From a virus, in the IMG/VR virus record IMGVR_UViG_3300036859_000609, positions 1-41,714 of that record: DNA of 41,714 bases; one strand, written 5' to 3'. The notes below the pieces were generated by a model. The model was not told where the DNA came from, made no database searches, and saw nothing but the letters and a program-made list of their open reading frames with translations. Within the stretch, counting starts at the first letter, position 1, and every line of letters begins with the position of its first letter. The position numbers and the translations under genes are program-made. Shown here piece by piece: positions 1-41,714 of the stretch.

Positions 1-122
1 GGGTGGTGTTCGAGCGTCGGCAGCGCAAACCGGTCGCGCGGACGTGCCCGACGTGCGGAGCCGTCAACTACGCGTGCGGGATGCCCGCCCTTGAGGCTGA
101 GCCGATCGAGGTCGGCCTGTGA
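1..122 (+). CDS. 3' end of FkbM methyltransferase/transferase fusion gene (partial, duplicate copy)
   Basis: This is the last part of the gene that is complete at the right end of the window. It encodes the terminal zinc-ribbon-like segment (CPTC, then a later C) and ends ...PIEVGL at the TGA at 120-122. It is present here only because the circular contig repeats its ends, and should be merged with the full copy at 40282-41709. Confidence 0.9.
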   Translation, partial: VVFERRQRKPVARTCPTCGAVNYACGMPALEAEPIEVGL

Positions 123-127
123 CGGCC
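1..127. repeat. Terminal redundancy, left copy
   Basis: These 127 bases are identical to the last 127 bases of the window. The repeat starts and ends inside coding sequence (the 3' end of the FkbM/transferase gene and the first codons of the next gene), so it is not a biological end structure with its own signals. 127 is a common largest k-mer in short-read assemblers, so this is best read as the overlap of a circular assembly. The unique genome is then 41,587 bp. Confidence 0.93.
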
Positions 128-994
128 GAGATCATCGGGCCTGGCGGACAGGTCGACGTCAGCGACCGGCCCGATCGCGAGCTCGGCAAGGTCTCCGTCG
201 AGGGCGACATCATCGTCGACGAAGTCACGATCGAGAACTTCCCGGCGGACTTCCCTGACGCCGCGGCGACGGCCGTGCTTGACGACATCAAGGCGCGCGC
301 CGATCTGCTCGCGACCGAGGCGAAGCTCGAAGCGGTGCGCGCGCTGCTGGCGGCCGCCCTCAGCGTGCAGGGGACCGTGGCGCTCGACGCGGCGACGCTG
401 GCGGCGCTGGAGTCGATCAGCGCGGTCGTGTCCGGAACCGTGGCATTGGATGCGCCCACCTTGGCGGCACTCGAGACGATCAACGCTGTCTGCTCGGGGA
501 CCGTGGCGCTCGACGCGACGACGCTGGCGGCGCTCGAGACGATCAACGCGATCGTGACCGGTGCGGTCTCGGTCACGAATCTCCCTGACGACTTCCCCGA
601 CGAGGCATCCAAATCGGCTCTCGACGCGATCAAGGCGCGTGCGGATCTGCTCGCCAGCGAGGTGACGCTTACCGTCGTGCGCGACAAGCTCGGCCCGGTC
701 GCTACCGCGAACGGGGTGGCGAGTTCGATCGGCGACACGGTCGTCCATACGCCCCAGGCGGGTAAGGCGATCCGGCTCCGCTGGATCTGCATCCAGACCC
801 CGAAGATCAACGGCGCTGAGGTCGATGTCACGATCCGGATCGGGGACGAGGTGGTGTACGGGCCGATCGAGCTCGAGCCCAAGCGGCTGTGGATGCACGG
901 GACGCACTTCCCCGGCGCAGTCGACGACGAGCTGATCGTCGAGCTGTCGGCCGCCCAGCAGGTTCGCGTCTTCGCTGACGTCGAGGAGTTCTAG
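119..994 (+). CDS. Putative virion surface or head-decoration protein with internal repeats
   Basis: A 291-residue protein starting at a GTG that overlaps the stop of the FkbM fusion gene (GTGA). It has no recognisable enzyme motif. Residues 85-147 are three 21-residue repeats beginning GTVALDA and containing TLAALE. They are flanked by two copies of a FPDD/IKARADLLA segment (about residues 40-65 and 154-180). The C-terminal 100 residues look like a beta-rich domain. The repeats suggest an elongated helical shaft with a globular tip. The position after the coat and glycosylation genes and before the connector genes suggests a head fibre or decoration protein. This role is inferred from context. 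Confidence 0.72.
   Translation: MTAEIIGPGGQVDVSDRPDRELGKVSVEGDIIVDEVTIENFPADFPDAAATAVLDDIKARADLLATEAKLEAVRALLAAALSVQGTVALDAATLAALESISAVVSGTVALDAPTLAALETINAVCSGTVALDATTLAALETINAIVTGAVSVTNLPDDFPDEASKSALDAIKARADLLASEVTLTVVRDKLGPVATANGVASSIGDTVVHTPQAGKAIRLRWICIQTPKINGAEVDVTIRIGDEVVYGPIELEPKRLWMHGTHFPGAVDDELIVELSAAQQVRVFADVEEF
371..559 (+). repeat. Three tandem 63-bp coding repeats
   Basis: Three consecutive in-frame units, each 21 codons, encode GTVALDA-x-TLAALE-x-I-x-A-x3. The nucleotide sequence has diverged more than the protein, so the repeat appears to be kept for its protein shape. A fourth, degenerate unit (GAVSVTN) follows directly. Confidence 0.85.
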
Positions 995-1002
995 GAGGGG
1001 CC

Positions 1003-1206
1003 ATGCCAGAGGACGAAGCACCCGATCTTACTGCGGTCTCCTGCTCGGCTTGCGGCGATGGCGCCGAGATAATGACCCCAGCCCCCGAGGCCTTCGAGGT
1101 GGCCCCGTTCGTCTTCGAAGGCCACGACGAGCCCGTCCAGGGCGTGCAGTGGCTCTGCCCCAGCTGCAAGGAGCCGAACCTGATCGTGAAGCCGGAGGAG
1201 GCGTAG
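1003..1206 (+). CDS. Small zinc-ribbon protein
   Basis: A 67-residue acidic protein with two knuckles, CSAC near residue 14 and CPSC near residue 53, as in a zinc ribbon. A GGAGGGG ribosome site lies directly upstream of the ATG. It sits between two putative virion proteins in the late operon, so it may be a minor structural or assembly factor. No specific function can be assigned. Confidence 0.75.
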   Translation: MPEDEAPDLTAVSCSACGDGAEIMTPAPEAFEVAPFVFEGHDEPVQGVQWLCPSCKEPNLIVKPEEA

Positions 1207-1208
1207 CC

Positions 1209-1919
1209 ATGGGTGTGCAGGCGCTCGGGGTTCTCGGCCCCACCGGCGAGGTCAAGACGCGGGCTATCCGCAAGGTGCGCAACGAGGGCTTCGGGCCTGG
1301 TCGCGAGCTGACGGTCAAGGAGATCCTTCAGTACGGCGCGCCCAACCGGGAGTGCTCCGAAGAGGTCAACCGCTGGCGCCGGCACAACACCGCGAACCTG
1401 TTCCGAGGCGTCCGTCGCGTGCTTGCAGCTCGCGCGCTCAACCTCCCGACGCTGTACGGCCAGCTCTACATCCGCGTGCACCGCGCGAAGACGGGTCTGT
1501 GGGTTCCCTACGGGCTCGCCTCGATGCGCGTGGTCACCTCCGCCGGCGTCAACTTCATCGTCGACGGGTTCCAGAACCTCGTGGAGCTCGAGAACATGAA
1601 GTTCCACGGGATCGGGACCGGCTCGACTGCCGAGGCCTCGGGTGACACCGCCCTGGTGACCGAGCTGACCACCCAGTACAACCCCGACAGCACGCGCGCG
1701 ACCGGTACCACCACCGAGGGCGCGAGCGCGAACATCTACCGCACCGTGGGGACGAACGCCGTCGACGCGACCGTCAACCTGCGAGAGCACGGCGTGTTCA
1801 CGCAGGCGGCGACGGGTGACGGCACGCTGCTCGACCGCTCACTGTTCGCGGGCATCAACCTCGACTCGGGCGACTCGATCGAGACGACGTACGAACTGAC
1901 CGTCGTCGCCGGCGGCTAG
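1209..1919 (+). CDS. Putative phage structural protein
   Basis: A 236-residue protein starting at an ATG two bases after the preceding stop. The open frame extends upstream, but that part overlaps the zinc-ribbon gene out of frame. The N-terminal third is basic and helical. The rest is Gly/Thr-rich with a segment like GTGSTAEASGDTALVTEL, a pattern I associate with conserved phage structural proteins of unknown role. The spacing within the late operon fits a virion component. No catalytic motif is visible. Confidence 0.7.
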   Translation: MGVQALGVLGPTGEVKTRAIRKVRNEGFGPGRELTVKEILQYGAPNRECSEEVNRWRRHNTANLFRGVRRVLAARALNLPTLYGQLYIRVHRAKTGLWVPYGLASMRVVTSAGVNFIVDGFQNLVELENMKFHGIGTGSTAEASGDTALVTELTTQYNPDSTRATGTTTEGASANIYRTVGTNAVDATVNLREHGVFTQAATGDGTLLDRSLFAGINLDSGDSIETTYELTVVAGG

Positions 1920-1931
1920 GAGGCGAGCGGG

Positions 1932-2132
1932 ATGCCAGTCGACCCGCAGGTCACCCTCACCCAGGTTGAGAAGGACGCGCTCGCGGCGTTCCTGCGGCCG
2001 CTCGTGAACGGGTTGACCGTGGCTCAATCCAAGACGCTCGCGACCGGGTGCGTCACCTGGATGACGACGAACCACAAGCTCCGTCTCGACTGGCCGCTCG
2101 CGTGTAAGGCGGCGGGAGGGGTCATCCTCTGA
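1932..2132 (+). CDS. Small hypothetical late protein
   Basis: A 66-residue protein preceded by an AGGAGGCGAGCGGG ribosome site. It reads as a small helical protein (LTQVEKDALAAFLRPL, then a Trp-containing second half) with no transmembrane segment or metal site. Its TGA overlaps the ATG of the next gene, so the two are translationally coupled. Function unknown; probably a small virion or assembly protein from its position. Confidence 0.65.
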   Translation: MPVDPQVTLTQVEKDALAAFLRPLVNGLTVAQSKTLATGCVTWMTTNHKLRLDWPLACKAAGGVIL

Positions 2133-2344
2133 TGGGCACCTACGCGCTGACCACGACCGCGGACGAGTACGTCATCGAGGACCCCGTCTCGGGGCACCGC
2201 TACACGGTGAACCGACACCCTGGTCATTTCTGCGCGGAGGAGTTCTACCCGTGGGCGATGGACGGAACCGGCCGCAGCACCCACGAGCAGGTACGAGACT
2301 GGTTCATCGCCTCGATCGAGGCCAACGGCAACACGGTGACGTGA
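2132..2344 (+). CDS. Small hypothetical late protein
   Basis: A 70-residue acidic protein whose ATG shares its A with the upstream TGA. It contains a beta-rich start (YALTTTADEYVIEDP) and a DPVSGHRYTV motif. I do not recognise the family. The gene ends two bases before the repeat-protein gene and is clearly part of the same late transcript. Confidence 0.65.
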   Translation: MGTYALTTTADEYVIEDPVSGHRYTVNRHPGHFCAEEFYPWAMDGTGRSTHEQVRDWFIASIEANGNTVT

Positions 2345-2345
2345 C

Positions 2346-3743
2346 GTGCCGATCGGGCACGGCGTCGGAGACTTCTATCTCCGGGTGATCAACCTCACGC
2401 CGTCGGAGACGAAGCGCAAGCTGCTCTCCGACACCAGCGGCACAACCGACGACAACACGACGAAGTGCAACTTCGGAACGAGCGGCGCAGCCGCATGGAT
2501 CATCTGCGATCCGCTGCTGACCAACGCGACCAAGGAAGGCACGGGCGCGGACCCGACCCCGTGGTCGACGGCGCAAAACAAGGGGTGGAAGTTCGACCCC
2601 GACGACCTTGACACCTCGGCTGGCCCGCCGATCCGCAACCGGCGCCTGCAGGCCCAGACCATCGGCCTGATCTACAACGTGACCGCCTCCGTCACGCAAG
2701 CCACCGCGGACACAACCATCCTCGCTGCTATCTACCGTATCGCCTCAGGCGGTGGCGCCACGCTGCTCGCCTCAGCCCGCACGACGTTCGCCGCGACCGT
2801 CAACCGACTCAACAACACGCTCAACATCACTCTGCCGGAGACGATCCTGGGTCCAGGCGAGTCGCTGCAGCTCGAGATCTGGCTCAAGGCGCCGTCGATC
2901 CCTGTCACCGGCCAGACGCTGTCGCTGATCCTGGAGGCGTCGGGTGTCGCGTCCGGCGGCGTCATGGAGCTGTCGACGACCAGCCAAGGCTTGATGTACC
3001 ACTACCAGCAGACCAAGGCGGGATCCTCAACGCCCTCCGGCGGGCTGCTGAAGAAGGTCAAGGACAAGGAAGCCGGTTCGACCACCCCGACGGGTGCGAT
3101 CCGCAAGCTGATCCACTCGCGCGCGGCACGCACGGCTGGCAGCTCGACGCCCACCGGAGCGATCCGCAAGCTGATCCACTCGCGCGCGGCACGCACGGCT
3201 GGCAGCTCGACGCCCACCGGCGCGCTGCTGAAGAAGCCGAAGCTCCCTCGGGGCGGCTCGACCACGCCGACCGGCGCGCTGACGCGACGCAACGTCTTCA
3301 AGAAGCTCGCCGGCTCCACGACCCCGACCGGAGCGATCCGCAAGCTGATCCACTCGCGCGCGGCACGCACGGCCGGCAGCTCGAATCCGACGGGCGCCAT
3401 CCGGAAGCTGATCCACAGCCGCGCAGCTCGCACGAGCGGAAAGATCTCCACGCTGACAGGGCTGCTGCTGAAGCGGCCGCGAAAGGTGCTCGGCGGGAGC
3501 ATCTCGCCGGGCCCCGGAACGATAACGCGGCGGAACATCTTCAAGAAGCTGGCCGGCTCGACCACGCCGACCGCTGCGCTGCGCAAGTTCATCGCGAAGC
3601 GAGGCGGGATCTTCTCCGGATCGACCACGCCGACGGGGGCGCTGCGCAAGAAGCCCGGCATCACGCTCGAAGGCGTGATCGCGCCCACCGAGGTTGGTGA
3701 GACCCCCGAAGAGACCGTCGTGATGATCGTCGACGACCTGTGA
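2346..3743 (+). CDS. Virion protein with 11 basic Ser/Thr-Pro-Thr-Gly repeats
   Basis: A 465-residue protein with a GTG start one base after the upstream stop. Residues 1-220 form a beta-rich domain suited to particle attachment. Residues about 225-442 consist of 11 imperfect repeats of 18-21 residues with the core (A/G)GS(S/T)TPTGA followed by a Lys/Arg-rich stretch, in several copies IRKLIHSRAART. An acidic tail ends the protein. Ser/Thr-Pro clusters are plausible O-glycosylation sites, and the sugar-transfer genes lie just upstream in the same operon. A head or tail fibre, or adhesin, is the likely role. Glycosylation is inference. Confidence 0.72.
   Translation: MPIGHGVGDFYLRVINLTPSETKRKLLSDTSGTTDDNTTKCNFGTSGAAAWIICDPLLTNATKEGTGADPTPWSTAQNKGWKFDPDDLDTSAGPPIRNRRLQAQTIGLIYNVTASVTQATADTTILAAIYRIASGGGATLLASARTTFAATVNRLNNTLNITLPETILGPGESLQLEIWLKAPSIPVTGQTLSLILEASGVASGGVMELSTTSQGLMYHYQQTKAGSSTPSGGLLKKVKDKEAGSTTPTGAIRKLIHSRAARTAGSSTPTGAIRKLIHSRAARTAGSSTPTGALLKKPKLPRGGSTTPTGALTRRNVFKKLAGSTTPTGAIRKLIHSRAARTAGSSNPTGAIRKLIHSRAARTSGKISTLTGLLLKRPRKVLGGSISPGPGTITRRNIFKKLAGSTTPTAALRKFIAKRGGIFSGSTTPTGALRKKPGITLEGVIAPTEVGETPEETVVMIVDDL
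3018..3670 (+). repeat. Tandem repeat array in the Ser/Thr-Pro virion gene
   Basis: Eleven coding repeats of about 54-63 bp. The two units starting at 3096 and 3159 are nearly identical over 63 bp, and closely similar units start at 3333 and 3396. Such similarity at the DNA level allows unit gain and loss by recombination, so the copy number may differ between related phages and could be miscounted by a short-read assembly. Confidence 0.9.
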
Positions 3744-3756
3744 GCGGAGGAGCCGC

Positions 3757-4536
3757 ATGGCACGCAAGGTAGGTCGTGGCGGCTCGATCACGCTCGACGC
3801 CGAGTTCAAGGACGGCACGGGCTCGCTCGTCGATCCTCTCACGCCGCGCGTCGACATCGTCGACTCCGACGACGTCGAGGTTGTCACCGACGCCGTCCCG
3901 ACACGGATTGCCGAGGGGCGCTACGAGTACACCTACGACGTCGCAGTCGACGCGCCGCTGGGGTCCTGGCTGGCGCACTGGACGGGCACAATCAACTCGG
4001 CGGCCGTCTCCGGGGACGAGGCTTTCGAGGTCGTCGAAGCCGGCTCGGTCGGCGCACCCGGCGACGCGTGGATCGACCACGTGCCCGTCGGTGTGCTGGT
4101 GCAGACGGACCTGAGCGGGGACGACTACATCGAGGGACTGATCGCGCAGGCGCAGGGCCTCGCCGAGGTTGAAGTCGGGACGCAGGCCACACCGAGCGCG
4201 GGGCTGAAGGCGGTGCTTGCGCAGATCGTCGCGCGGATGTGGCAGGCGGGGAAGTCGGCGCAGGTCAATCCGGCGGCGATGCAGTCGGAGACGGTCGGGC
4301 CGTTCAACTACCAGAACCCCAACGCCGGCACCGCGGGCCTGGGGCTCACCAACCGCGAGAAGGCGGCGCTGCGCAAGGCTGCAGGCGTCACCGGGCTGTG
4401 GATCCAGCCGACGACGCGCGGCGAAGTCGAAACGGCGCCGATCCACGAGAACCGCCAGGGCGTCACGGCCGCCCAGCAGCTGCAGGTGGCTGGCGGCGCC
4501 GACATCACCTGGTTCGACCCTGAGGACATCCCGTGA
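3757..4536 (+). CDS. Head-tail connector (gp6-like adaptor) with N-terminal Ig-like domain
   Basis: A 259-residue protein with a GGAGGAGCCGC ribosome site. Residues 1-90 are a beta-sandwich-like segment (LDAEFKDGTGSLVDP ... YTYDVAVDAPLGSWLAHW), typical of Ig-like modules added to phage proteins. The C-terminal part (DYIEGLIAQAQGLAEVEVG ... LKAVLAQIVARMWQ) has the alternating helix pattern of small head-tail connector proteins that bind the portal. Position directly before the stopper and tail-terminator genes supports this. Usual connectors are about 100-150 residues, so the extra domain is an addition. Confidence 0.75.
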   Translation: MARKVGRGGSITLDAEFKDGTGSLVDPLTPRVDIVDSDDVEVVTDAVPTRIAEGRYEYTYDVAVDAPLGSWLAHWTGTINSAAVSGDEAFEVVEAGSVGAPGDAWIDHVPVGVLVQTDLSGDDYIEGLIAQAQGLAEVEVGTQATPSAGLKAVLAQIVARMWQAGKSAQVNPAAMQSETVGPFNYQNPNAGTAGLGLTNREKAALRKAAGVTGLWIQPTTRGEVETAPIHENRQGVTAAQQLQVAGGADITWFDPEDIP

Positions 4537-5610: not shown

Positions 5611-6135
5611 ATGGCTGGCGATCCCGCGAAGGCAACGATCTGGCCGGATGCAGACGTCTACGTCGCCCCCCTGGGCACGGCCATCCCCGCCGACGTCGAC
5701 ACGGACTTCGGCGCAGGCTGGGACCTGGTCGGTCTGCTCGACGGCGAGCAGGGCTTCGCCCAGAACCGCAGCGAAGACGTCACCGACCACTACGCCTGGG
5801 GCGGGATCCTCGTCCGCACGGCGCGCAAGAACTTCAAGTCCACGACGGCGTTCACGCCGCTCGAGGACAACGACGTCGTGCGCGATCTCGTGTGGCCGGA
5901 CTCGCCGGCGGGCCAGATCATCCGTCCGCGTCCCAAGCGGATCCTGATCGCGTTCGAGCTGCGCGAGGACACCACGGTCAAGCGGCTGATCTCGGCGTAC
6001 CAGGCCGAGGTCTCGCTGAACGCGGACATCGTCGACAAGGAGGACGACCTCACGAAGTACCCGCTGCTCGCCACGATCTTCCCCGACTCCGACGGCGTGC
6101 TCTTCACCGAGCAGAAGACCGAGGAGGGTTCGTGA
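5611..6135 (+). CDS. Major tail (tube) protein
   Basis: A 174-residue protein with an ATG preceded by the strong site GAAGGAGGGCC. The sequence VYVAPLGTAIPADVDTDF followed by GWDLVGLLDGEQGF is characteristic of actinophage-type tail tube proteins, which open with a strand-loop segment naming the tube repeat. The length fits the family (about 170-250). The gene lies between the tail terminator and the assembly chaperones. The frame is open further upstream, but the ribosome site and the family both favour this start. Confidence 0.85.
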   Translation: MAGDPAKATIWPDADVYVAPLGTAIPADVDTDFGAGWDLVGLLDGEQGFAQNRSEDVTDHYAWGGILVRTARKNFKSTTAFTPLEDNDVVRDLVWPDSPAGQIIRPRPKRILIAFELREDTTVKRLISAYQAEVSLNADIVDKEDDLTKYPLLATIFPDSDGVLFTEQKTEEGS

Positions 6136-21170: not shown

Positions 21171-21542
21171 ATGACGATCCGGATCGACGGCCTCGACGAC
21201 GAACAGCAGGGCGCCCTCGAGGCCGTCTTGACGAGCGGATATGGTCCCCGACCTGATCTCACTCTCAACGGGACAGAGATCGGCGCCGTCATCAGGCTCG
21301 CCGCTCGGGCTCAGCTCGAGGTCACCCGCCTCGAAGCGGGAGTCGTCACTAAGTCGACGAGCATCCGCAGACAGGTGCGCGAGATTGAGCGGCTCACCCG
21401 ACGCATCAGGGAGCTCAACGACCGGCTCGACCAGGTAGCAACGGTGTGCGCGCGCGCGCTGGCCGGCTCGGGCCCGCGGTCCAAGGAGCGCGCGCTGGCG
21501 AACGCGATCGCCGTGGTGCTGGGCTCGAAGGACGAGGACTGA
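21171..21542 (+). CDS. Coiled-coil early protein
   Basis: A 123-residue protein with a GAGGAGAGCG ribosome site. Residues 45-92 form a long amphipathic helix suited to a coiled coil (QLEVTRLEAGVV, RRQVREIERLTRRIRELNDRL). The N-terminal part is a short alpha/beta segment. Its TGA overlaps the ATG of the ParB-like gene, so the two are co-translated and may act together. Function unknown. Confidence 0.65.
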   Translation: MTIRIDGLDDEQQGALEAVLTSGYGPRPDLTLNGTEIGAVIRLAARAQLEVTRLEAGVVTKSTSIRRQVREIERLTRRIRELNDRLDQVATVCARALAGSGPRSKERALANAIAVVLGSKDED

Positions 21543-23002
21543 TGGCACCCCACGGCAACGCCAAGGCACGCCTGTCGATGAGCGGGGACCAGGCGTCGCT
21601 GTTCCCGGTGATCGTCCAGGCGAAGCTCGACCTGGTCGAGCCGGCGAACGACAACATCCGCCGCGAGCTGCAGGGCATCGACGAACTCGCGGCCTCCGTC
21701 GAGGCCGTCGGCATCCTCGAGCCGCTGATCGTCACGGAGATCCTCGACACCGAGCCGATGCGCTACCGGATCGTCGCGGGCGCGCGGCGCCACGCCGCGG
21801 CGCAGAAGGCCGGGCTGACCCACGTCCCGGTGATTGTGCGCGAGCTCGACGACCGCGCGCGGATCGAGATCATGCTGATCGAGAATCTGCAGCGCTTCGA
21901 CTTGACGCCGGTCGAAGAGGCCGTCGCCTACCAGCGCCTCGAGCTCGTGGGGCTCAAGCAGCGCGAGATCGCCCGCCGCATCGGCCGCTCGCAGTCGCAC
22001 GTCTCCAAGCGCGTTCAGCTCCTCGAGCTCCCCGAGCGCGCGCTGAAGGCGATCGAGACCAACGAGCTGACGCTCGAGACGGCGCTCGACCTGACGAAGC
22101 TCGCCGACACCGCCGACGGGCGTGCTGAGATCGAGAAGATCGTCGAGGCCGGCGCGCAGCCCTGGCGCATCAACGAGGCGATCCAGCGCCGCGATCGCGA
22201 GGTCCACCGCCGGAATCTCCGGGTGAAGTTCGCCCAGGATGGCATCCGAGTCGTCGAGTCCCCCGAGGAGGACGCCGACGGCGAGGCGTTCGACGCCTGG
22301 CGTTCGACGGTGATGCAGATGCCAGGCCAGAAGCGGCACGCCTGGGAGCTCCTCGACCCCTCCGACGTCGAGGGCGGGATGCCCTCGATCGAGGAGCACG
22401 CATCCGAGCCTTGCCACGCCGTCTGGATCCCCGAGGGCAACTACGGGGAGGCGTTCGCCTACTTCGTCTGCACCGAGCCGGCACGGCACGGGTTCGACCC
22501 GTCCACGGTATTCGGCATCGACGAAGACCCGGAGGACGAGGCGGCGGCTGAGGCTCGTGAGAAGGCGAAGGAGCGCGCGCGCGCGGAGGCGCTCGACCGC
22601 TTCGACACGTTCGTGCCCGAGCTCCTCTCGCGCCACGTCGAAGGTCGCGTCCCGAGCGCACCGCTGAGCCTGTTCGTCGGCTATTGGTTGCAAGTCGATC
22701 TCGATCCCGAGCACTACGTTCCGGTTCTGAAGCTGCTCGCCGTCGACGTTCCCGACGTCGAGAGCGATCTGGACGGCGACAAGGTCATCGGGCTGCTGAA
22801 CGAACGGATCGCCGTCGAGCCCGCGCGCGTCGTTCTTGCGCACGTGCTCTGGCAGTACCGGGCGCAGCTCGTGGCCGCCTGGCGCGTGATGGGGGGATGG
22901 ACCACGCAGGTGTTTGAGTGGTTGGTCACCCAGGGCTACAACCCCACTGCCCACGAGCTGGCCATTCACGCCATCGAACCCGAGGAGCGCGTCGACACGT
23001 GA
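21542..23002 (+). CDS. parB: ParB-like DNA-binding protein
   Basis: A 486-residue protein. The ParB N-terminal domain is clear: the phosphate-binding GARRHAAA (residues 80-87, equivalent to GERRxRAA) and ENLQRFDL (114-121), both linked to CTP binding in ParB. A helix-turn-helix follows at 138-160 (LKQREIARRIGRSQSHVSKRVQL). The C-terminal 250 residues are longer than in chromosomal ParB and unassigned. No ParA gene is in the genome, so roles in gene control or replication are as likely as partition. The dispersed 17-bp palindrome is a possible target. Confidence 0.85.
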   Translation: MAPHGNAKARLSMSGDQASLFPVIVQAKLDLVEPANDNIRRELQGIDELAASVEAVGILEPLIVTEILDTEPMRYRIVAGARRHAAAQKAGLTHVPVIVRELDDRARIEIMLIENLQRFDLTPVEEAVAYQRLELVGLKQREIARRIGRSQSHVSKRVQLLELPERALKAIETNELTLETALDLTKLADTADGRAEIEKIVEAGAQPWRINEAIQRRDREVHRRNLRVKFAQDGIRVVESPEEDADGEAFDAWRSTVMQMPGQKRHAWELLDPSDVEGGMPSIEEHASEPCHAVWIPEGNYGEAFAYFVCTEPARHGFDPSTVFGIDEDPEDEAAAEAREKAKERARAEALDRFDTFVPELLSRHVEGRVPSAPLSLFVGYWLQVDLDPEHYVPVLKLLAVDVPDVESDLDGDKVIGLLNERIAVEPARVVLAHVLWQYRAQLVAAWRVMGGWTTQVFEWLVTQGYNPTAHELAIHAIEPEERVDT

Positions 23003-27260: not shown

Positions 27261-27813
27261 GCCGGTCCTTGGTCTGTTCGGCCGGATGCGCGAGACACTG
27301 CGCGAGCGCAAGAAGCAGACGCGCGCGCGCGTCTGGCGCACCAGCGACAAGCGATGCCTCTACTGCGATCGCCGCGATCCCCACGAGCACCAGCGCGTGC
27401 TCGTGAAGTCGCTCGACAAGCTCCGCGACGTCGCGCCCCAACCGCTCGAGATCGTCCAGGTGCTGCCGTTCGGCTCGTTCGTGCAGGCGACGACCGACGG
27501 CGGCACCGAGACCGTCCCGTTGACGCGTGCTTTCAGGCGGCCTGCGGTGCTCGACGAGCGTCGCAAGGCCAAGCCGAAGCTCCGCGGCCTGCTCAACCTG
27601 CCGAAGCGATGCCCGGGCTGCGGTGCCCCGCACTCGGTCGACGCGAAGCGATGCGTCGACCCGGACTGCGGCGCGCGCCTACCGTCCATGGCGAGCGTGC
27701 GCGCCGACTGGAACAGCGAGCGCGGCGCGCGCTTCGCCGAGCTCCCGAGCATGGAGAGCCTCCGTGAGCACCGCGAGATCCCCGCCACCGTCGGATCCGG
27801 GAGGGCCGGATGA
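27253..27813 (+). CDS. Zinc-binding early protein
   Basis: A 186-residue basic protein with GGAGGGTCCTCCC before its ATG. Two possible metal sites are visible: CLYC near residue 36 with DPHEH after it, and CPGC (about 120) with CVDPDC (about 137). The helical N-terminus has RMRETLRERKKQTRARVW. Such layouts are common in phage proteins that bind nucleic acids, but I do not recognise the family. Its stop overlaps the beta-helix gene's start by four bases. Confidence 0.62.
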   Translation: MSKPVLGLFGRMRETLRERKKQTRARVWRTSDKRCLYCDRRDPHEHQRVLVKSLDKLRDVAPQPLEIVQVLPFGSFVQATTDGGTETVPLTRAFRRPAVLDERRKAKPKLRGLLNLPKRCPGCGAPHSVDAKRCVDPDCGARLPSMASVRADWNSERGARFAELPSMESLREHREIPATVGSGRAG

Positions 27814-29063
27814 CCATCAAGCGACTGACCTACCTGAAGCTGCTGGTCGTCGGGATCATGGCGTGCAGCATCGCGATCGGCGGCTTGTTCGTGGGGAGCC
27901 TCAACGCTCCCCTCGCCGGTGCGCAGGTCGACTGCGGCACCCCGACACCCACTCCGACCGCATCGGCGTCACCTTCCCCGACGCCGACCGGCTCGGGCGT
28001 GCAGCTGAAGGCTGGCGCCTCCCTCAGCACCGCGATCGCGAACTACCCCGCCGGCATGCGCTTCGACCTAGCCGCCGGCACCTACAAAGTCACCAGCTCC
28101 CTGGTCCCCAAGGACCGCCAGAGCTTCGTCGGCGCGCCCGGCGCGCTGCTCACCGGCTCGGACTCCACCCCCTACGCCTTCACCGGCTCGGCCAAGGGCG
28201 TGCAGATCCACGGCCTGATCGTCGAGCACTTCAAGTCCGCCAAGCAGGAGGGCGCGATCAGCTCCAAGAACGCGACGGGCTGGCTGATCGAGTCGAACGA
28301 GATCCGCCACAACGCCGCCGGCGGCATCTACGCAGGCCCAGGAACGCACGCCATCGGCAACTACGTCCACCACAACCACCAGATCGGAATCAAGGCCAAG
28401 GGCGCCGACATCGCATTCGAGGACAACGAGGTCGCCTTCAACAACTGGCTCAAGGAGTACTCCTACGGCTGGGAAGCCGGCGGCTCGAAGTTCTGGTCGA
28501 CCACGAACCTCGTGCTCCGCGGCAACGACGTCCACGACAACTGGGGCCCGGGCCTGTGGACCGACCACGACAACACCGGAACCCTGATCGAAGGCAACAC
28601 CGTCACCCACAACGCCGACGCCGGCATCTTCCACGAGATCAGCTACTCGGCGACGATCCGCAACAACACGATCACCCAGAACGGCTACGACCGCGGCGAC
28701 TGGCTCTGGGGCTCCGGCATCCAGATCGCATCAAGCGGCGGGACCGGCATCGACATCTACGGCAACACCCTCGATGGCAACGCGAACGCGATCGGGCTGA
28801 TCCAGCAAAACCGCGGCTCGGGCAACCAGGGCACCTACCTCGTCCAGAACGTGCGCGTGCACGACAACGTCATCAAGCTGAGCTCCGGCCACTCGGGCGC
28901 AGTCCAGGACGTCGGCTCGAACGCGATCTTCACCTCGCGCAACAACCGCTTCGACCACAACACCTACACGCTCGGCTCGGTCTCGAAGCCCTTTTACTGG
29001 AACAACGGCGCGCGCGCGTGGTCGGAGTGGAGCTCGATCTGGCCCACGGAGGTGAAGGCGTGA
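27810..29063 (+). CDS. Secreted right-handed beta-helix protein (pectate-lyase/NosD-like)
   Basis: A 417-residue exported protein. Residues 1-38 form a signal peptide (KLLVVGIMACSIAIGGLFV ... APLAGA). A Pro/Thr/Ser linker follows (about 43-62, PTPTPTASASPSPTPTG). Residues 65-410 show repeated short strands with Asn ladders: ESNEIRHNAAGGIY, IGNYVHHNHQIGIK, LRGNDVHDNWGPGLW, IEGNTVTHNADAGIF, IYGNTLDGNANAIG. These are PbH1 repeats of parallel beta-helix proteins, many of which cleave or bind polysaccharides. It is not in the tail operon, so it is probably released by the infected cell or lysogen, not a tailspike. The substrate cannot be told. Confidence 0.82.
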   Translation: MTIKRLTYLKLLVVGIMACSIAIGGLFVGSLNAPLAGAQVDCGTPTPTPTASASPSPTPTGSGVQLKAGASLSTAIANYPAGMRFDLAAGTYKVTSSLVPKDRQSFVGAPGALLTGSDSTPYAFTGSAKGVQIHGLIVEHFKSAKQEGAISSKNATGWLIESNEIRHNAAGGIYAGPGTHAIGNYVHHNHQIGIKAKGADIAFEDNEVAFNNWLKEYSYGWEAGGSKFWSTTNLVLRGNDVHDNWGPGLWTDHDNTGTLIEGNTVTHNADAGIFHEISYSATIRNNTITQNGYDRGDWLWGSGIQIASSGGTGIDIYGNTLDGNANAIGLIQQNRGSGNQGTYLVQNVRVHDNVIKLSSGHSGAVQDVGSNAIFTSRNNRFDHNTYTLGSVSKPFYWNNGARAWSEWSSIWPTEVKA

Positions 29064-37944: not shown

Positions 37945-38910
37945 ATGGCGAACAAGTTCCTGAAGGTCGGGGTCATCGGTCAGACGATGATCCAGCTGCT
38001 GTTCCGCGAGCTCGTCGTGGCTCGCACCGTCTGGACCGACGCGGTCCGTGCGGACGAGTTCGTCGGCGCCCTGGGCGACACGGTCACGCTGCGCGTGCCG
38101 GCTCGTCGCACGGCGCGCACGCGCGCGCTCCGAGGCACCGGCGGCGCTCGCACGCTCACGCTCGACGACTCGAACGAGTACGCGGTCCCGGTGAAGATCG
38201 ACACGGACGTCTACAACGGCGCCCCGATCACAGACGAGGAGCTCGACCTGGACATCAAGGACTTCGCGGCCCAGGTGCTCCTGCCCCAGGTCCGCGCGGT
38301 CGCCGAGAAGATCGAGGACATCATCGTCGACGAGATCCAGGGTGCGGACTACAGCGAGGATCTCGACATCGACGACTCCGACCCGTACAAGACGTTCGTC
38401 GCGGCTCGGAAGATCCTCAACGACCGCAACGTCCCCAAGGCGAGCCGGTTCATGCTCGTCGGCTCCGGGATCGAAGCGCTCCTGCTGGAGTCCGACCGCT
38501 TCGTGAAGGTCGACAACCTCGGCAGCGACGCCACGGACGCCTTCCGCGAGGGGACGATCGGACGCGTCGCCGGCTTCACGGTCCTGCAGTCCAATGCCGT
38601 CGACGAGGAGGAGGCGTTCGCCTACCACCGCACGGCGTTCGTCGCCGCCGGCCGCACGCCGAGCGTCCCGCGGGGCGCAACGGCGGGCCAGTCGGTGCCG
38701 CTGTCGCGCGGTGAGGTCCAGCAGGTCGGCGCGTCCATGGGCGGGCTCTCCGCTCGCTGGATCATGGACTACGACCCGACGATCGCCACCGACCGCTCGT
38801 TCACCTCGAGCTGGATCGGCACGGCGACCGTGGAGGACCCGGACGACATCACCGACCCGGACTCCGCGACCTCGTTCCTGAGGGGTGTTCGGATCCACAT
38901 CGGTAGCTGA
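37945..38910 (+). CDS. Major capsid protein, P22-coat type
   Basis: A 321-residue protein with GAAGGAGTGAGCCGC before the ATG. The pattern (VGVIGQTMIQLLFRELVVARTVWTD, GDTVTLRVPARR, VPVKIDTDVYNGAPITDEEL, then RFMLVGSGIEALLLES and GTIGRVAGFTVLQSNAV) is that of P22-like coat proteins with the HK97 fold. No N-terminal delta domain is seen. The order scaffold then coat supports it. A very stable hairpin follows 13 bases after the stop. Confidence 0.93.
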   Translation: MANKFLKVGVIGQTMIQLLFRELVVARTVWTDAVRADEFVGALGDTVTLRVPARRTARTRALRGTGGARTLTLDDSNEYAVPVKIDTDVYNGAPITDEELDLDIKDFAAQVLLPQVRAVAEKIEDIIVDEIQGADYSEDLDIDDSDPYKTFVAARKILNDRNVPKASRFMLVGSGIEALLLESDRFVKVDNLGSDATDAFREGTIGRVAGFTVLQSNAVDEEEAFAYHRTAFVAAGRTPSVPRGATAGQSVPLSRGEVQQVGASMGGLSARWIMDYDPTIATDRSFTSSWIGTATVEDPDDITDPDSATSFLRGVRIHIGS

Positions 38911-38912
38911 GC

Positions 38913-39584
38913 ATGACGCACGTGATGGAGGGGGCTTCGGCCCCCTCCATCATCCCTTGCGTCATCCACCGGATCTGGGTGGGCTCGCCGATGCCCGATG
39001 TCTTCGTCGAGTACGGACGCGAGTGGCAGCGGCTCCACCCCCACTGGGCCTTCATCGAGTGGGGCGACCACAACCGACCCACGCTGTTCAACGAGCCCCT
39101 CTACGTGCACGCGGAGCGGTACGTTCCGCTCGCGAACGTAGGGCAGTTCCGCTCCGACATCCTGCGGCTCGAGATCCTGTGGCACCTGGGCGGCCTGTAC
39201 GTCGATACGGACTTCGAGCCGCGCAAGCCGATCGACGATCTGCTGGCCGGTGCCGAGTTGTTCGCGACCTGGGAGGTCGACGGCCGCTGGATCGCTAACG
39301 GGCTGATGGGTGCGCGGCCGCACCACTCGTTCATCCGCCGGCTGATCCAGGGCCTGCCCGACAGCGTCGGGGCGTCGCCGGGCGTCACGCCGAATCGCAC
39401 CAGCGGGCCGCAGTACCTCACGCGCATGTGGCGCGAGCTGAAGCCGGACATGCGGATCGCGCCGTCGCGCCTGTTCTATCCGTACGGCTGGAACGAGCTC
39501 CACCGCCGGGACGAGGAGTTCCCAGACGTGTACGCCGTGCATTTATGGGCCAACCAGCGTCGGAAGCGAGGGATCCCGCTGTGA
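38913..39584 (+). CDS. DXD glycosyltransferase (GT32/OCH1-like)
   Basis: A 223-residue sugar transferase. The pattern is clear: IPCVIHRIWVGSPMPD near the start, FIEWGDHN, QFRSDILRLEILWHLGGLYVDTDFEPRKPID with the metal-binding DTD at about residues 96-98, and GLMGARPHHSFIRRLI. These enzymes use nucleotide sugars. The start may be ATG 38913 or ATG 38925; both lie at or within a very stable hairpin, so translation should be held down relative to the coat gene. It lies between coat and virion genes, so a virion protein is a likely target. Confidence 0.85.
   Translation: MTHVMEGASAPSIIPCVIHRIWVGSPMPDVFVEYGREWQRLHPHWAFIEWGDHNRPTLFNEPLYVHAERYVPLANVGQFRSDILRLEILWHLGGLYVDTDFEPRKPIDDLLAGAELFATWEVDGRWIANGLMGARPHHSFIRRLIQGLPDSVGASPGVTPNRTSGPQYLTRMWRELKPDMRIAPSRLFYPYGWNELHRRDEEFPDVYAVHLWANQRRKRGIPL
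38923..38952 (+). terminator. Hairpin between coat and glycosyltransferase genes
   Basis: GATGGAGGGGGC pairs with GCCCCCTCCATC around the UUCG-type loop TTCG, and one more T-A pair extends it to 13 bp. No T tract follows, so termination may be partial. It lies inside the start of the glycosyltransferase frame and includes its second possible start codon, so it can lower both transcription and translation of the sugar module after the highly expressed coat gene. Confidence 0.78.
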
Positions 39585-40285
39585 ACGTCGACCACCTCGT
39601 CATCGGCGCCGGCGAAGTCGGCCGAGCGGTCGCGGAAGTCCTGCAGCGCGGGCCGGGTACCGTTGCGATCCGCGACGTGGTGCCGGGTGACGACGACCCA
39701 GGTCACGCTCGGATGCTGCACATCTGCTTCCCGCACGGCGACGGCTTCGAGGACCAGGTGATCGTCTACCGCGCGATCTACGTTCCCGACGTCGTCGTGA
39801 TCCACTCCACCGTGCCGGTCGGCACGACGCGGTACCTGGGCGAGGTGCACTCGCCGGTCCGTGGGATGCATCCCAACCTTGTCGAGGGGCTCCTGACCTT
39901 CGTGAAGTTCTTCGCCGGCGCCGGGGCGGAGGACGCCGCCGCGGCCTTCAAGGAGTGCGGGGTGCCGGTCGAGGTCGCGGTGCAGCCCGAGACGACCGAG
40001 GCGGGCAAGCTCTGGGAGCTCCTGCAGTACGGGCTCGCGATCGTCATCCAGAAGGAGATCTACGCCTGGTGCGAGGCCGTGGGGGCGGACCCCGAGGTCG
40101 CTTATCGCCGGTTCGCAGAGACGTACAACGAGGGCTACCGCCTCCTCGGAAACCATCGGGTCGTGCGGCCGGTCATTCGGCCGATGCCCGGCTCGATCGG
40201 TGGCCACTGCGTGGTGGCCGGCGCGCGCCTGCTTGAGCACCCGCTCGCGGACCTGCTCGCCACCCTGAACGAGGAGCACGCATGA
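39581..40285 (+). CDS. Short nucleotide-sugar dehydrogenase-like protein
   Basis: A 234-residue protein coupled by GTGA. An NAD-binding start (LVIGAGEVGRAVAEVL), VVVIHSTVPVGTT, the helix PETTEAGKLWELLQYGLAIVIQKEIYAWCE and a late MPGSIGGHCVV correspond to the N-terminal and central parts of UDP-sugar (WecC/UDP-glucose) dehydrogenases. The family is usually about 400 residues, and the C-terminal sugar-binding domain is missing. It may have lost oxidation activity or act on another substrate. It lies with the transferases in one operon. Confidence 0.75.
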   Translation: MNVDHLVIGAGEVGRAVAEVLQRGPGTVAIRDVVPGDDDPGHARMLHICFPHGDGFEDQVIVYRAIYVPDVVVIHSTVPVGTTRYLGEVHSPVRGMHPNLVEGLLTFVKFFAGAGAEDAAAAFKECGVPVEVAVQPETTEAGKLWELLQYGLAIVIQKEIYAWCEAVGADPEVAYRRFAETYNEGYRLLGNHRVVRPVIRPMPGSIGGHCVVAGARLLEHPLADLLATLNEEHA

Positions 40286-41709
40286 ACGTCGCGCTCAAGG
40301 CGCATGGACGACACGTCCGGCTCGACCTCGCGGATCCCGACGACCACATCTCGCGCCGGATCAGCAGGCGCCGCGACTTCTACGAGCGGGACCTCCTCGA
40401 GGACCTGCACGCCCGCGCGCGCGGCGGGGTTGCGATCGACGTCGGCGCGCACGTCGGCAACCACACGGTCTGGATGGCCGCGATCTGCGGGCTCGACGTG
40501 GTGGCCATCGAGCCCAACGCGGGCTCGCTCGCGCAGCTCAACCGCAACGTCGCCGTCAACGACCTGGCCGGCAAGGTCCGCGTCATCGCGGCGGCCGCCG
40601 GAAGGGCGCCGGGCTTCGCGCGCGTCGAGATCCCGAACCCTGCGAACACCGGCATGGCGCGCGCGGTTCTTGACGACGCCGGCGTTGTCGAGGTCGTCAC
40701 GATCGACGAGCTTGAGCTCGACAACGTCAGCGTCATCAAGGTCGACGTCGAGGGCTCGGAGATCGAGATCCTCGAGGGCGCGCGCCGCACGATCGAGCGC
40801 TGCCGCCCGCTGCTGTACGTCGAGGCTCAGACCGACGAGGCCCGCTCGCGCACCACGGCATTCCTCGCCGAGCTCGGGTACCGCTGCTTCGGCTGCTACG
40901 CGTTGACGCCGACCTACGGCTTCGAGCCGGCCCCCGAAGCGGTCGAGCCGGCCGCGATCCGGGTCTCGGTCGCGATCATGGCCCACCCCGCGCGCACGGC
41001 GTTCGTCGAGCAGCTCGTCGACGCGATCGACGCGCCGGTGCAGACCTGCTGGGACGAGCTGAACGATCGCTGGGACACGGGGCGGCGCGCGCTCCTCGCC
41101 TATGACCCCCTGGCAACACACCACATGGTCATCCAGGACGACGGAGTTGTCTGCCAGGATCTAGTGAAGGGTGTCACGCGCGCGCTCGAGCGCAACCCGC
41201 ACTGCCCGACTTCGCTCTACCTGGGCCGCCAGCGCCCCAACGGGCCGCACTTCAACAAGGTGATGGCGCAGGCGACTGAGGTCGGCGCCACGTGGATCAT
41301 CGGGCCGGAGCTCTGCTGGGGAGTCGCGCTGTGCTTTCCCGTCGGCCTGATCGAGCCGATGGTCGCCGCCGGTGACGCAAGCACCTCCCCGAACTACGAC
41401 AAGCGGCTGAGCGCGTATCTGCTCAAGCAGAAGATCCCGACTTGGTACACCGTGCCGTCCCTGGTGGATCACCGGCGGCAGGAGGAATCACCGAGCCTGG
41501 TCCCCGGTCGCACGGGACCGAACCGGGTCGCGCATCGCTTCGTCGGCTCGACCGAGAGTGCGCTCGCCCTCGACTGGGCGGGTGGGCGGGTGGTGTTCGA
41601 GCGTCGGCAGCGCAAACCGGTCGCGCGGACGTGCCCGACGTGCGGAGCCGTCAACTACGCGTGCGGGATGCCCGCCCTTGAGGCTGAGCCGATCGAGGTC
41701 GGCCTGTGA
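40282..41709 (+). CDS. FkbM methyltransferase fused to a transferase-like domain and zinc ribbon
   Basis: A 475-residue multidomain protein. Residues 1-210 are an FkbM-type methyltransferase (AIDVGAHVGNHT at 51-62, VVAIEPNAGS, then VIKVDVEGSEIEILEGAR). Residues 228-420 resemble a GT-A-type glycosyltransferase (SVAIMAHPARTAFVEQLVDAID, HHMVIQDDGVVCQDLV with the acidic motif QDD, GLIEPMVAAGDASTSPNYD). The C-terminus has a CPTC...C zinc-ribbon-like end. FkbM enzymes O-methylate sugars and related groups, so the fusion may add and methylate a sugar. The last 122 bases are duplicated at the left end. Confidence 0.83.
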   Translation: MNVALKAHGRHVRLDLADPDDHISRRISRRRDFYERDLLEDLHARARGGVAIDVGAHVGNHTVWMAAICGLDVVAIEPNAGSLAQLNRNVAVNDLAGKVRVIAAAAGRAPGFARVEIPNPANTGMARAVLDDAGVVEVVTIDELELDNVSVIKVDVEGSEIEILEGARRTIERCRPLLYVEAQTDEARSRTTAFLAELGYRCFGCYALTPTYGFEPAPEAVEPAAIRVSVAIMAHPARTAFVEQLVDAIDAPVQTCWDELNDRWDTGRRALLAYDPLATHHMVIQDDGVVCQDLVKGVTRALERNPHCPTSLYLGRQRPNGPHFNKVMAQATEVGATWIIGPELCWGVALCFPVGLIEPMVAAGDASTSPNYDKRLSAYLLKQKIPTWYTVPSLVDHRRQEESPSLVPGRTGPNRVAHRFVGSTESALALDWAGGRVVFERRQRKPVARTCPTCGAVNYACGMPALEAEPIEVGL

Positions 41710-41714
41710 CGGCC
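41588..41714. repeat. Terminal redundancy, right copy
   Basis: Exact copy of bases 1-127. See the left copy. It ends in the middle of codons of the next gene, so the window can be closed by joining 41587 to base 1. Confidence 0.93.

Follow-up and report, generated by a model that had tools for sequence, protein, structure and literature searches.

The window analysed here is a 41,714-nucleotide stretch covering the whole of IMG/VR virus record IMGVR_UViG_3300036859_000609. Its first and last 127 bases form an exact terminal direct repeat (1..127 and 41588..41714), so that the record closes into a circle, as the initial annotation had assumed. Close to the right end, a + strand gene (37945..38910) encodes a P22-like major coat protein of 321 aa (phrog_283, 4e-45; PF11651, 3e-9). 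After a gap of only 2 bases comes a gene for a GT32-type DXD glycosyltransferase, called GT32 below (38913..39584, +, 223 aa; PF04488, 1.3e-11). It is followed by a gene with a GTG start for a short nucleotide-sugar-dehydrogenase-like protein, NSDH (39581..40285, +, 234 aa; TIGR03026, weak, 0.0012), and by a fusion gene (40282..41709, +, 475 aa). The N-terminal part of the fusion protein is an FkbM (Methyltransf_21) domain (40282..40950, +; PF05050, 3e-21; TIGR01444, 6e-27). Its C-terminal part is a glycosyltransferase domain, GT854 (40951..41709, +), assigned to phrog_854 (glucosyltransferase) by a match over residues 228-422 (8e-36) and ending in a short CxxC-type tail (TCPTCGAVNYACG). Neighbouring module genes share 4-base stop/start overlaps (GTGA/ATGA) of the translational-coupling type, and the run of three genes on one strand directly after the coat gene, as first described, is thus present.

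Across the circle closure, the stop of the fusion gene overlaps the GTG of a further gene (119..994, +) in the same way (GTGA). The product of this translationally coupled gene matched no family and contains three 21-residue repeats, encoded by internal 63-base units (VSGTVALDAPTLAALETINA). Downstream of the module lie genes without assigned role and then a head-tail adaptor gene (3757-4536, phrog_137). The module had been placed between the coat gene and surface-protein genes; the coat neighbour stands, while surface-protein genes were not shown on the downstream side. A major tail (tube) protein is encoded at 5611..6135 (+; phrog_117, 6e-30). Distant from the module are genes for a ParB-like protein (21446-23002, phrog_6218) and a right-handed beta-helix protein (27810-29063, PF13229). 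Megablast of 20 kb of the record against phages gave no match.

The GT32 gene product passes the PF04488 cut-off (45.5 bits versus 23). Its DXD motif corresponds to Y96-V-D98-T-D100, and residues H19, W22, D82, G93-G94 and D98-x-D100 are invariant in the window protein and five relatives, which confirms the DXD glycosyltransferase of the initial annotation. The GT32 profile matched, among others, the Och1-type alpha-1,6-mannosyltransferase 9n3s (5e-11). Its matches to other DXD enzymes are confined to a short shared core and were set aside as superfamily resemblance only. The FkbM domain also lies above its cut-off (TIGR01444, 94.8 versus 37.7 bits), and with phrog_854 it accounts for the methyltransferase-transferase fusion noticed earlier. 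No solved structure was matched by GT854 at the sequence level. The methyltransferase and GT854 are fused in the window, in locus L007 and in a few others, and are encoded by separate adjacent genes in most relatives; this pattern links the two activities to one pathway.

The description of the second gene as a shortened nucleotide-sugar dehydrogenase holds for fold and length, whereas the sequence match is weak: NSDH scores 17.7 bits against TIGR03026, whose curated cut-off is 189.8, and no Pfam family was matched above its cut-off. The best PDB matches of an AlphaFold model (pLDDT 75) are the UDP-glucose dehydrogenases 3plr and 1dli, with beta-hydroxyacid dehydrogenases fitting the fold nearly as well. 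NSDH thus has in common with the UDP-glucose/UDP-ManNAc dehydrogenases of TIGR03026 the fold, a Rossmann NAD site with GxGxxG, the STVPxGT motif (STVPVGT), a catalytic-type Lys and the catalytic-type Cys of GGHC. It differs from them, apart from its score, by a length of about 230 aa and by the lack of the C-terminal NDP-binding domain, the chain stopping about 24 residues past GGHC. In an alignment of 21 members, all short (215-252 aa as aligned) and with a similar end, GxGxxG is found in 20 and T77, TEA-x-K143, N183 and GGHC210 are kept, with K143, N183 and GGHC210 invariant. Since the short length is common to all 21, it represents a family-wide form and not a broken gene. UDP-glucose dehydrogenases carry an Asp four residues after the catalytic Cys. 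This Asp is absent from NSDH, and because the NDP-binding domain is missing as well, the activity of the protein is uncertain; for the latter reason the enzyme may not need an NDP-sugar.

Close relatives of NSDH were found only in IMG/VR phage contigs and in one bacterial genome, that of Streptomyces aidingensis, where a prophage-like locus with the module (L149) corresponds to one of the phage contigs; tblastn against isolate phage records gave no match. In nine distinct close relatives (50-54% identity), GT32 is adjacent in every case, GT854 is present in eight and FkbM in seven, the contig of the ninth (L136) ending soon after GT32. More distant members (L137, L142-L145, L148, L138) belong to low-GC phages, where their genes lie in structural operons. 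Some of these distant loci lie near Gmd, DegT or NeuB genes, without GT32 or GT854: in L148 the NSDH gene adjoins genes for a GDP-mannose dehydratase, a DegT aminotransferase and an adaptor, and in L143 a NeuB gene is about 8 kb away.

A scan with the GT854 domain returned 80 loci; those already found brought the total to 87, which cluster at 90% identity into 53 groups. Of these groups of viral contigs, 44 contain GT32, at a median distance of 1.25 kb and a maximum of 4.4 kb; several of the nine groups without it have short flanks. FkbM is present in 28 groups and NSDH in eight. In 237 control viral loci (2.16 Mb), GT32, GT854 and NSDH were never found and FkbM was found once. Extra tailoring genes, assigned by Pfam (some weakly) and by sequence inspection, occur in relatives: they encode LicD-type domains, in many cases as fusions with GT32, additional methyltransferases, and proteins resembling sulfotransferases. 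LicD domains fused to or beside GT32 are seen at L130:10770-11936, L132:4176-5309, L135:10678-11811 and L134:7810-8304; sulfotransferase-like proteins are encoded within the module at L132:6348-6989 (Pfam, weak) and, by inspection, at L130:12346-12882 and in L280 and L292. Among isolates, Mycobacterium phage Phrappuccino (NC_054727) encodes a GT32-like gp142 and a GT854-like gp154, about 6 kb apart.

The upstream neighbours of the module were identified by PHROG hits and then used as queries across the 53 groups. They comprise at least seven major head families (phrog_283, 10, 1328, 1650, 133/4523, 9953, 212, 777) and one major tail-tube family (phrog_792). Forty-six groups were informative, having enough flank or a hit, and the remaining seven had too little flank. 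A major head or tail-tube gene lies about 2 kb or less upstream (3 to 2017 bases) in 34 of the 46, a count that describes the position rather than testing it against chance, since the queries came from the same loci. Such a gene is downstream of the module or farther off in three of the 53 groups, and in nine no head or tail-tube match was seen despite at least 3.5 kb of flank. The module of the window is one version of a set that dozens of phages carry alongside genes for the shell or the tail tube, apparently next to the major head or tail-tube gene of each phage, of whatever family. Since the coat families beside it are not recognisably homologous, a coat-specific acceptor sequence is unlikely, and the module may lie by the coat gene because it is expressed late and not because the coat is its target. 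One contig with a 58% identical coat carries a different sugar set (L010:1607-2989): after its head-closure gene come a Che8 gp108-related glycosyltransferase gene (phrog_14775) and another transferase-like gene.

The initial annotation had proposed as substrate a protein with 11 repeats of GS(S/T)TPTG, encoded three genes after the module. The repeat protein (2346..3743, +, 465 aa, repeats at residues 224-440) is in fact the product of the sixth gene past the module (119, 1003, 1209, 1932, 2132, 2346), and GS[ST]TPTG occurs six times exactly, 10-11 copies being reached only by loose matching. These six Ser/Thr-Pro motifs, and a + strand structural region common to the repeat protein and the module, would fit glycosylation of this protein as a virion fibre; we nevertheless hold this to be very unlikely. 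The T-P-x-G core is kept where the flanking Ser/Thr become Val, Ile or Gly, so that the repeat reads as structural and not as an acceptor, and the repeat region is highly basic (net charge +43 over 217 residues). The AlphaFold model of the protein has a pLDDT of 39, too low to be of use.

It is on co-occurrence that the repeat protein was rejected as acceptor. A repeat profile scored strongly on the window and on three positive controls; when nine records with the module and two coat relatives were searched, it gave no more than two marginal matches (E 0.004, 0.006), and a pattern screen of GT854/NSDH loci found the array in the window only. Conversely, the 18-21 residue repeat (GSxTPTGxLxK...) is also found in phages without the module, and GT854 and PF04488 were absent from the repeat-bearing records examined, an absence that is not absolute because many surveyed records are fragments. 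DNA-pattern scans for the repeat gave mostly chance or unrelated matches and were filtered by repeated spacing; a locus search with the repeat protein, whose query patterns lay mostly outside the repeats, returned nothing.

The partner of the repeat protein is instead the gene-1212 family rather than the sugar genes. The gene-1212 protein (1209..1919, +, 236 aa, phrog_5417) is not part of the sugar module; in L069, L120, L195 and L250, the gene for a homologue (49-65% identity) adjoins a repeat-protein gene or lies close to it. In a survey of 80 gene-1212 loci in 69 groups, the repeat array was present in at least 27 groups (records L162, L160 and L199 included) within the stretch examined; GT32, GT854 and NSDH were found in none, and an FkbM match was seen in two groups. 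Several further records also have arrays without GT32, GT854 or NSDH. Frequent occurrence of the repeat protein without the sugar genes is what the initial annotation itself had named as evidence against its proposal, and the idea of the repeat protein as substrate is thereby corrected. The repeat protein is therefore part of a gene block of its own, and its co-presence with the sugar module here does not reflect a general link. In many phages, the gene-1212 family and the GSxTPTG repeat protein recur together as a block (1003-3743 in the window). In L250 a small CxxC protein (1900-2103) is encoded beside the gene-1212 homologue, with a window counterpart at 1003-1206. Besides the window, L138 and L139 are the sole loci seen in which a gene-1212 homologue and NSDH are both present.

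The explanation that we favour, and consider probable, is a late-expressed virion-decoration module. GT32 and GT854 would assemble a short glycan on one of the major virion proteins, the FkbM domain would O-methylate it, and the short NSDH would oxidise or otherwise tailor the sugar, before or after transfer. The acceptor would most likely be the coat protein encoded just upstream or, as second choice, the tail-tube protein. The grounds for this explanation are homology and gene position, the module being known here from its genes alone; sugar identity, step order and benefit to the phage, for which evasion of recognition had been suggested, are conjectural. GT854 is related to gp110 of mycobacteriophage Che8, which itself belongs to phrog_854 (1e-99; 26% identity to the window domain, 5e-13; hhalign 99%). 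Virion self-decoration, as a proposal, is well supported because GT854 falls in the Che8 gp110 family and the module adjoins head or tail-tube genes. Of the earlier suggestion that the virion glycosylates and methylates its own proteins, this part may thus be retained, without the repeat protein. With an identity to gp110 of only 26%, donor and acceptor may differ from those of Che8.

Phage-borne glycosyltransferases that modify host surface glycans are known, and cell-surface glycans are also among the substrates of the GT32, LicD and FkbM families. The module might accordingly modify a host surface glycan, so as to mask the receptor or exclude other phages. We consider this improbable: no transmembrane-like segment stood out in the module proteins, the module has neither a membrane anchor nor a flippase-like gene, and its position in most relatives is within head/tail clusters. 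In addition, the capsid is the reported target of Che8 gp110, which is the closest relative with experimental data (PMC12363180).

DNA glucosylation, for which other phages provide a precedent, is another conceivable role. That the module glycosylates phage DNA bases seems to us hardly credible, as no thymidylate-synthase-type base-modification gene was found in the record, a scan of the nonstructural genes gave no base-modification gene either, and FkbM, LicD and sulfotransferase-like partners fit glycan tailoring.

With decoration of the virion as the preferred reading, the short dehydrogenase family now has an obvious place in a pathway. A bolder version, to which we give a rather low probability, is that NSDH oxidises a sugar already carried by the capsid or tail tube, giving uronic-acid-like or aldehyde-bearing glycans, and that coat-adjacent modules are a general and mobile virion-coating trait of actinophages.

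Virion glycosylation, which among the cases found here has been shown experimentally in a few mycobacteriophages, is suggested here as a recurrent module in environmental phages. Capsid and tail-tube proteins of mycobacteriophages are reported as glycosylated (PMC12363180, PMC11600133), and Che8 gp110 and Corndog gp38 are described as essential capsid glycosyltransferases (PMC12363180, citing Freeman et al. 2023). Cluster O phages have an O-methyltransferase and three transferases encoded between the portal and protease genes; in Corndog, these four gene products were seen when infected cells were analysed but not when virions were, and few peptides came from the coat (PMC4351075). Like these sets, the window module brings together glycosyltransferases and a methyltransferase and, as in cluster O but not in Che8, it is linked to head or tail-tube genes. 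Corndog gp35-38, known to us from papers, lie within the head genes as the window set lies by the coat gene, whereas the Che8 sugar genes are near the right end of the genome. Che8 gp108-110 and the window module have the GT854 family in common, and gp108 is a glycosyltransferase-methyltransferase fusion, a type of fusion also made in the window.

Further differences concern the other enzymes. The window methyltransferase is of FkbM type, a short NSDH is added, and the partner glycosyltransferase is of GT32 type, whereas Che8 gp109 is a phrog_1721 protein without a match to that of GT32, which makes the window module a variant and not a copy of the mycobacteriophage module. Microbacterium cluster EC phages, with two glycosyltransferases and a UDP-glucose dehydrogenase (PMC7302621), resemble the window in that a single phage has both glycosyltransferases and a sugar dehydrogenase; as tblastn with NSDH against phage records gave no match, NSDH is no close relative of the cluster EC enzyme. 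In Actinoplanes phage phiAsp2, pas33-pas35 form one gene run, shortly after a putative major head gene, and encode a glycosyltransferase, a protein annotated as methyltransferase and an enzyme resembling phrog_854 (33.5% against the window domain); this run differs by lacking NSDH, which had no match across the phage collection. The window module is thus a known kind of virion-decoration module, in a variant form with a GT32 partner, an optional short dehydrogenase and a coat-adjacent position.
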